Origin: a bacterium
GTDB lineage: Bacteria; Bacillota_I; Bacilli_A; RF39; UBA660
Direction of reading: 5' to 3'
DNA: 34,805 nucleotides
NCBI GenBank assembly: GCA_029012525.1
Contig: JAQXMG010000017.1
Location: 1-34,805, forward strand
The notes under the pieces are model-generated. The model was given only the letters and a program-made list of their open reading frames with translations. It was not told the origin of the DNA and made no database searches. Shown piece by piece: positions 9,507 to 9,842 of this stretch (position 1 is the first letter of the stretch; each line of letters opens with the position of its first letter). The translations under genes were made by a program, and so were the position numbers.

Positions 9507-9534
9507 TTGAATTTTTGTTAATTAATATTATAAT
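9507..9534 (+). promoter_or_regulatory. Sigma-A-type promoter for the small hydrophobic peptide ORF
   Basis: TTGAAT 9507-9512, 16-nt spacer, TATAAT 9529-9534. Confidence 0.65.
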
Positions 9535-9601
9535 TATGCATATGAAATATCAGTTATTGAAGTGTCTACCTCTATTTTTTTACAAAATTGGAGGTGATGT
9601 A

Positions 9602-9694
9602 ATGAAAACAAAAACTTTTATTATAAAGTTCCTAAAACTCATTTGCATCATTTTATTGCTCCTTACTTTATTAGTATTAGTAATAAAAAAATGA
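9602..9694 (+). CDS. 30-aa hydrophobic lysine-flanked peptide, candidate type I toxin
   Basis: MKTKTFIIKFLKLICIILLLLTLLVLVIKK*; GGAGGTGAT (9590-9598) is a perfect 9-nt anti-SD complement; absent from the ORF track. Confidence 0.75.
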   Translation: MKTKTFIIKFLKLICIILLLLTLLVLVIKK

Positions 9695-9719
9695 CACTTA
9701 AGTCAATGACTTAAATGTC
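9685..9719 (-). terminator. Intrinsic terminator of the antisense RNA
   Basis: 12-bp stem with one G-U wobble on the minus strand, followed by a 7-T run; on the plus strand the wobble becomes a C-A mismatch. Confidence 0.75.
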
Positions 9720-9797
9720 TTCAAAAACAATTTTGGTAGACATTCAATATAGCAAAATTGAATATTCCCTATTTAATATATACAAGAAATCCTTGAT
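9685..9797 (-). ncRNA. Candidate antisense RNA antitoxin convergent with the peptide mRNA
   Basis: Minus-strand promoter TTGATA (9832-9827)-17-TATTAT (9809-9804). Minus-strand terminator: stem GACATTTAAGTC-ATT-GACTTAAGTGTC (9719-9693), then A and T7. Confidence 0.65.
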
Positions 9798-9842
9798 GTA
9801 TACATAATAACATAAAAATAGAAATTTATCAAGGGTTTTATA
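9787..9842 (+). terminator. Possible terminator of the peptide mRNA
   Basis: AAATCCTTGAT ... ATCAAGGGTTT (one G-U) followed by TTAT; large loop. Confidence 0.4.

Follow-up and report, generated by a model that had tools for sequence, protein, structure and literature searches.

A large and apparently undescribed family of probable type I toxin-antitoxin loci in uncultured gut Bacilli, with predicted competition between toxin leader and antisense RNA

Introduction

In the tisB/istR system of E. coli, a short membrane peptide is encoded behind a LexA-controlled toxin promoter. In the bsrG/SR4 system, binding of the antisense RNA SR4 to bsrG mRNA extends the hairpin that holds the Shine-Dalgarno sequence (SD) from 4 to 8 bp (PMC6562991). 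In aapA3, the SD is hidden by long-distance pairing and the mRNA is activated by 3' trimming (PMC6733600).

The locus described here was found in a 34.8-kb stretch of DNA (hereafter the window) from a bacterium of the family UBA660. An earlier note on this DNA had proposed a type I toxin-antitoxin locus in which an antisense RNA runs convergently over the 3' end of a short toxin gene. That layout was strongly supported in the present work by conserved coding, by an antisense promoter at fixed spacing, by covariation in an antisense terminator and in 5'-3' pairing, and by dispersed copies of the locus. It is very likely that the locus is one copy of a large chromosomal type I family of uncultured gut Bacilli, in which toxin leader and antisense RNA compete. 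Judged from the genomes compared, the family very probably represents a large and apparently undescribed type I superfamily; no description of it was found in the open-licence papers searched. The analysis was computational throughout and drew on genomes that were mostly assembled from metagenomes.

Results

Predicted toxin and antisense genes

The features of the locus are given below in window coordinates.

9507–9534, plus strand: toxin promoter TTGAAT-16-TATAAT; −10 kept in aligned relatives; no LexA box in this copy
9541–9601, plus strand: toxin mRNA 5' leader, predicted start at ~9541; near-copy of the antisense RNA core
9561–9570, plus strand: leader element E2 (AGTGTCTACC), pairing with 9735–9744; from cognate versus permuted pairing
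9568–9572, plus strand: anti-SD ACCTC, pairing with GGAGGT at 9590–9595; from folding and cognate versus permuted pairing
9590–9598, plus strand: Shine-Dalgarno GGAGGTGAT, read from sequence
9602–9694, plus strand: predicted toxin ORF, 30 aa (MKTKTFIIKFLKLICIILLLLTLLVLVIKK); one hydrophobic segment, net charge +6
9735–9769, plus strand: hairpin T2, terminator-like; in relatives it is the terminator of the toxin mRNA; each of its arms pairs with the leader as well
9693–9719, minus strand: hairpin T1, the antisense terminator; 12 pairs and a T-run; arms covary
9686–9797, minus strand: predicted antisense RNA, ~110 nt; fold z −3.3; promoter and terminator conserved
9804–9832, minus strand: antisense promoter TTGATA-17-TATTAT with extended −10 (TG); score and spacing conserved in relatives

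The sense promoter, the 30-codon ORF and the SD claimed by the earlier note were all in place, and no other ORF of 18–60 aa on the two strands of the window had a GGAGG ribosome site. Promoter-like matches in the AT-rich region were no commoner than expected by chance (19 versus 18.2 ± 3.9), and both promoters therefore rest on conservation rather than on the scan. The plus-strand toxin mRNA folded with a z of −5.7 relative to shuffles.

The minus-strand promoter, also noted previously, recurs in relatives at a fixed spacing, its −10 lying 34 nt from the T2 U-run (5th–95th percentile 32–36). Antisense promoters scoring at least 10 of 12 were observed in 33 of 49 copies, as compared to 2.6 expected from shuffles. 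T1 was the only terminator detected in the scan (1 versus 0.2 expected). As had been claimed, it overlaps the toxin stop codon, extending from 9719 to 9693 with its tail in the IKK-stop codons (9692–9686). The last codons of the toxin, ATA AAA AAA TGA, thereby double as the antisense U-run, and the C-terminal IKK may be conserved because its codons serve in this role. The earlier estimate of an antisense RNA of about 110 nt held for the predicted RNA itself; if the toxin mRNA stops just past T2, however, the overlap of the two RNAs would come to ~86 nt and would not take in the whole antisense RNA. The antisense −35 is flanked in relatives (e.g. L087, L088 and L023) by a small hairpin, with a mean MFE of −3.8 versus −1.7 for shuffled sequence, that is possibly an insulating terminator.

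A hydrophobic ORF was located upstream of 97 of 104 non-redundant antisense units, by a loose test that also passed several frameshifted or spurious ORFs. By eye, roughly 15 of the 104 units had retained the antisense gene beside a decayed toxin ORF. Broken ORFs in otherwise conserved loci had been named beforehand as evidence that would count against a toxin; this minority is not taken as a refutation because decay of this kind is the usual path of toxin genes and most copies are intact. The reverse loss, an intact ORF without an antisense promoter, was seen in L019, L069 and L021 of a sample collected by peptide, and the difference between the two rates is too small to carry an argument. Directly downstream of the toxin copy in L019 and L069, where the antisense promoter is lost, apparent tRNA genes were noted by eye.

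RNA pairing and a predicted Shine-Dalgarno switch

The helices are mutually exclusive, so that a plain RNAalifold run over the concatenated alignment yielded no usable consensus, and helices were therefore tested singly by comparing cognate with non-cognate pairing. As shared ancestry inflates such permutation tests, a non-redundant set and permutation within peptide types were used. The family leader, GGGAAYAUYAGUUGUUGAGUGUCUACCUC, resembles the antisense RNA core (GGGAACAUUCAGUUUUAGCGAGUUGAAUGUCUACCC); it pairs with each of the two T2 arms. Among 79 non-redundant copies, cognate leader:T2 pairing averaged −31.6 kcal/mol versus −21.3 for permuted and −26.6 for within-type permuted partners (0/10,000 in each case). 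Cognate pairs likewise beat permuted ones for E1:T2, E2:T2, the T1 arms and the T2 arms, and for anti-SD:SD (0/10,000; 85/10,000 within types). At least 8 pairs between leader and 3' untranslated region were present in the MFE fold of 73 of the 79 copies. A hairpin of the AUG region showed no within-type covariation (2519/10,000), though its codons ATC ATT TTA are nearly invariant.

The energy needed to open the SD was then compared between states of the mRNA, using approximate transcript ends. By folding, opening cost 5.4 kcal/mol in the full-length mRNA, 8.1 upon removal of the 3' end and 7.6 when the 3' untranslated region was occupied by antisense RNA; in the window copy the corresponding values were 5.8, 10.6 and 9.4. 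Because the SD is costlier to open with the 3' end removed or occupied, antisense binding is predicted from these models to tighten the SD hairpin, as SR4 does on bsrG mRNA.

These energies bear on a different explanation, namely a timer of the hok/AapA kind in which 5'-3' pairing keeps the full-length mRNA inert and translation becomes possible only once the 3' end is trimmed. The 5'-3' pairing in the toxin mRNA is indeed strong and conserved and, together with the anti-SD hairpin, recalls aapA3 (PMC6733600). Pairing in aapA hides the SD, however, whereas here 85% of 72 copies had an SD that was harder to open after 3' truncation, as against 3% in which it was easier, a trend in folding energy opposite to the exposure expected of that class. 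A homologous toxin peptide was not found either, the best hok-type match being HokA at E 0.12 and 12.4 bits versus a cut-off of 89. We consider a timer unlikely, and competition between leader and antisense RNA remains the preferred reading.

In the window copy the ORF and the SD are intact, as are the promoter and terminator of the antisense gene. Its leader:T2 pairing is weaker than in most copies (−20.4 versus a mean of −32.4) and its T2 U-run is degenerate and interrupted, on account of which this copy may be more poorly insulated from dus or in the process of decay. T2, the anti-SD hairpin, the 5'-3' pairing, the mimicry of the antisense RNA by the leader, the LexA boxes and the paralogous family were all absent from the earlier note.

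Peptide types and coding evidence

At least five peptide types of 23–37 aa were found on the common RNA chassis. All are short, with a positively charged N-terminus and one hydrophobic segment.

Type A: MKTKTFIIKVLKLI...
Type B: MNKKDFLILSLV...
Type C: MKKKDLLISFLI...
Type D: MTKREFSQFIIILLLF...
Type E: MRKSEKYLCTIIILL...
A further, longer peptide: in genome G035

Across 58 copies of the type-A ORF, pN/pS was 0.48 (mean pN 0.22, pS 0.47), the median dN/dS was 0.36 and variability was highest at codon position 3. By these measures the type-A ORF is under purifying selection and its peptide is really coding. Codons 16–18 (ATC ATT TTA; 9647–9655 in the window) hardly vary even at synonymous sites, which suggests a role or constraint at the RNA level inside the ORF. 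None of the peptide types gave a significant match in Pfam, NCBIfam, PADLOC, PHROGs or PDB sequences; this agrees with the earlier impression that the peptide is unlike known toxins. In Rfam no match reached the gathering score, and the best on the locus among those up to E 10 had E = 1, far below the cut-off.

LexA boxes in toxin promoters

A LexA motif was built from the operators upstream of the family's own lexA genes (CAAACAAATGTTTG type), a lexA gene being present in 25 of 25 sampled family genomes. Of 138 toxin promoters, 38 (28%) carry the box, placed 1 nt ahead of the −10, versus 0.0 expected from shuffles; they belong to types A–E. A second element, TGTTCG[AC]TTG, touches the toxin −35 in 34 of 143 copies (e.g. 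L012, L025 and L034) as compared to 2.0 expected. The two never occur in one promoter (Fisher P 1.4e-7), and the toxin promoter of the window has neither.

Distribution of the family

The search of related genomes that had been suggested for a conserved peptide with the same flanks found homologues in 24 of 60 relative genomes; almost all of these genomes belong to the same family (UBA660), and one genome may have up to 6. In a sample of the class, 31 of 395 members matched, 26 of them in the host's family. DNA identity is 72–78% over the whole locus, which is bounded by the toxin −10 and the antisense promoter; similarity ends at these boundaries and the surroundings differ. The DNA pattern from the T2 U-run to the antisense −10 was found in at least 117 stretches of GTDB species genomes, and those listed were nearly all labelled as uncultured Bacilli, Tenericutes or Bacillales; Candidatus Onthousia and Candidatus Ventrenecus are among them. 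No match to this one exact pattern was found in viral contigs, and no peptide homologues were found in the phages, plasmids and viral contigs searched.

Two more copies with other peptides reside in the host genome, on contigs C71 (MTQREKILFIIILLLFFIIIKLL) and C101 (MNRKDYSFFIIILLLFFIIITLLYR). A match to the antisense promoter at G000:C95 is not a copy of the locus, and its architecture is lacking at the weak matches to the peptide in genomes of other families (G080, G168, G265 and G404). One near-identical full locus (L218; G220:C32:11853-11942) lies near a contig end in a genome placed in another family and may reflect transfer or a binning error. The gene dus also adjoins a locus copy in two other genera (L046 and L048); directly upstream of dus in G003–G008 there is no copy. 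Tandem arrays of two to four copies were observed in L144 (4600–6100, minus strand), L166 and L078, one of them with a lost promoter.

The purifying selection, the LexA boxes that some copies have, the chromosomal location and the lack of any mobile-element link seen would also suit a small regulated membrane protein under antisense control, with a physiological and non-toxic role as a stress sensor or envelope modulator. Such a protein would not readily explain several unrelated-looking hydrophobic peptides on one chassis, which is typical of toxin loci, nor the toxin-typical tandem copies (L144 and L166), decayed ORFs with the antisense gene kept and very tight locking of the leader; we regard it as improbable, somewhat more so than the timer. 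It is most improbable that the locus is a selfish repeat or structured non-coding RNA with an incidental ORF: multiple dispersed copies, strong RNA structure and units without an intact ORF would fit, but the ORF carries codon-pattern selection (pN/pS below 1), the SD is kept and copies are dissimilar outside the two promoters, at which similarity stops so that there are no terminal repeats.

Discussion

Two of the features that define a type I toxin-antitoxin locus were present here, namely a coding gene for a short hydrophobic peptide and an overlapping antisense gene whose promoter, terminator and spacing are conserved in relatives. Toxicity of the peptide and its repression by the antisense RNA are presumed, and closure of the SD is predicted by folding in the models above.

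Built on the anatomy, coding, conservation, covariation and LexA boxes that are read from the genomes, the mechanism that we infer would proceed in the following order. A short mRNA would be transcribed and would encode the single-segment membrane peptide that is the presumed toxin, and a convergent, constitutive-looking antisense RNA would overlap it from the stop codon to past the terminator. As the leader nearly copies the antisense RNA core, the two would be rivals for a single 3' hairpin, T2. As long as the mRNA is free, its 3' end would hold the leader, leaving the SD less occluded. Occupation of the 3' end by antisense RNA would release the leader, upon which ACCTC would close the SD, and the long mRNA:antisense duplex that forms would presumably be a substrate for RNase III. 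Under stress, meaning DNA damage where a LexA box is present, the mRNA would outrun the antisense RNA and the peptide would act on the membrane. In a fuller proposal, which we hold as evenly balanced, the toxin leader would be a decoy that copies the antisense RNA of its own locus, and it would flip onto the ribosome site when the antitoxin binds; the chassis would carry interchangeable membrane toxins, and many copies would be tied by LexA to the SOS response.

The family would add what appears to be one of the larger type I toxin-antitoxin groups, none having been found described in this uncultured, small-genome gut lineage. As a single RNA switch occurs here in hundreds of natural versions with swapped toxins, competition between leader and antisense RNA could be tested directly. 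Boxes matching lexA's own operators also provide a predicted trigger, something often missing from chromosomal type I systems.

Comparison with known systems

In Clostridioides difficile, likewise a Gram-positive anaerobe, the genes for toxin and antisense RNA are also convergent in the group of CD2517.1-RCd8 and its relatives (PMC6563280). Its toxins are 34–59 aa and largely on prophages, whereas those of the new family are 23–37 aa, with none in viral contigs by the one exact pattern searched. With tisB/istR the new family shares a short membrane peptide and, in some of its copies, a toxin promoter under predicted LexA control; istR, however, is divergent and targets the leader, and the sequences are unrelated. 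Like aapA/IsoA of Helicobacter pylori, the new family is chromosomal and multi-copy, with long-distance 5'-3' pairing and a local anti-SD hairpin (PMC6733600). IsoA is described as cis-overlapping, whereas the antisense RNA here overlaps the 3' end of the toxin mRNA, and the long-distance pairing is predicted to relieve occlusion of the SD where that of aapA adds to it.

The TxpA/BsrG class, in the form of bsrG/SR4 of Bacillus subtilis, is alike in its convergent antisense RNA over the toxin mRNA 3' end, its short hydrophobic peptide and an SD inside a hairpin whose occlusion should grow upon antisense binding (PMC6562991). The convergent, 3'-overlapping antisense gene of that class was thus found in the new family; a homologous toxin was not, as judged from Pfam and NCBIfam profiles. 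The new family also differs in having no detectable peptide or RNA family match and in its antisense RNA of ~110 nt as compared to 180 nt for SR4. Its leader repeats the sequence of the antisense core and is able to pair with the hairpin of the terminator, its antisense U-run is encoded by the last codons of the toxin, and it comprises many chromosomal copies with several toxin types.
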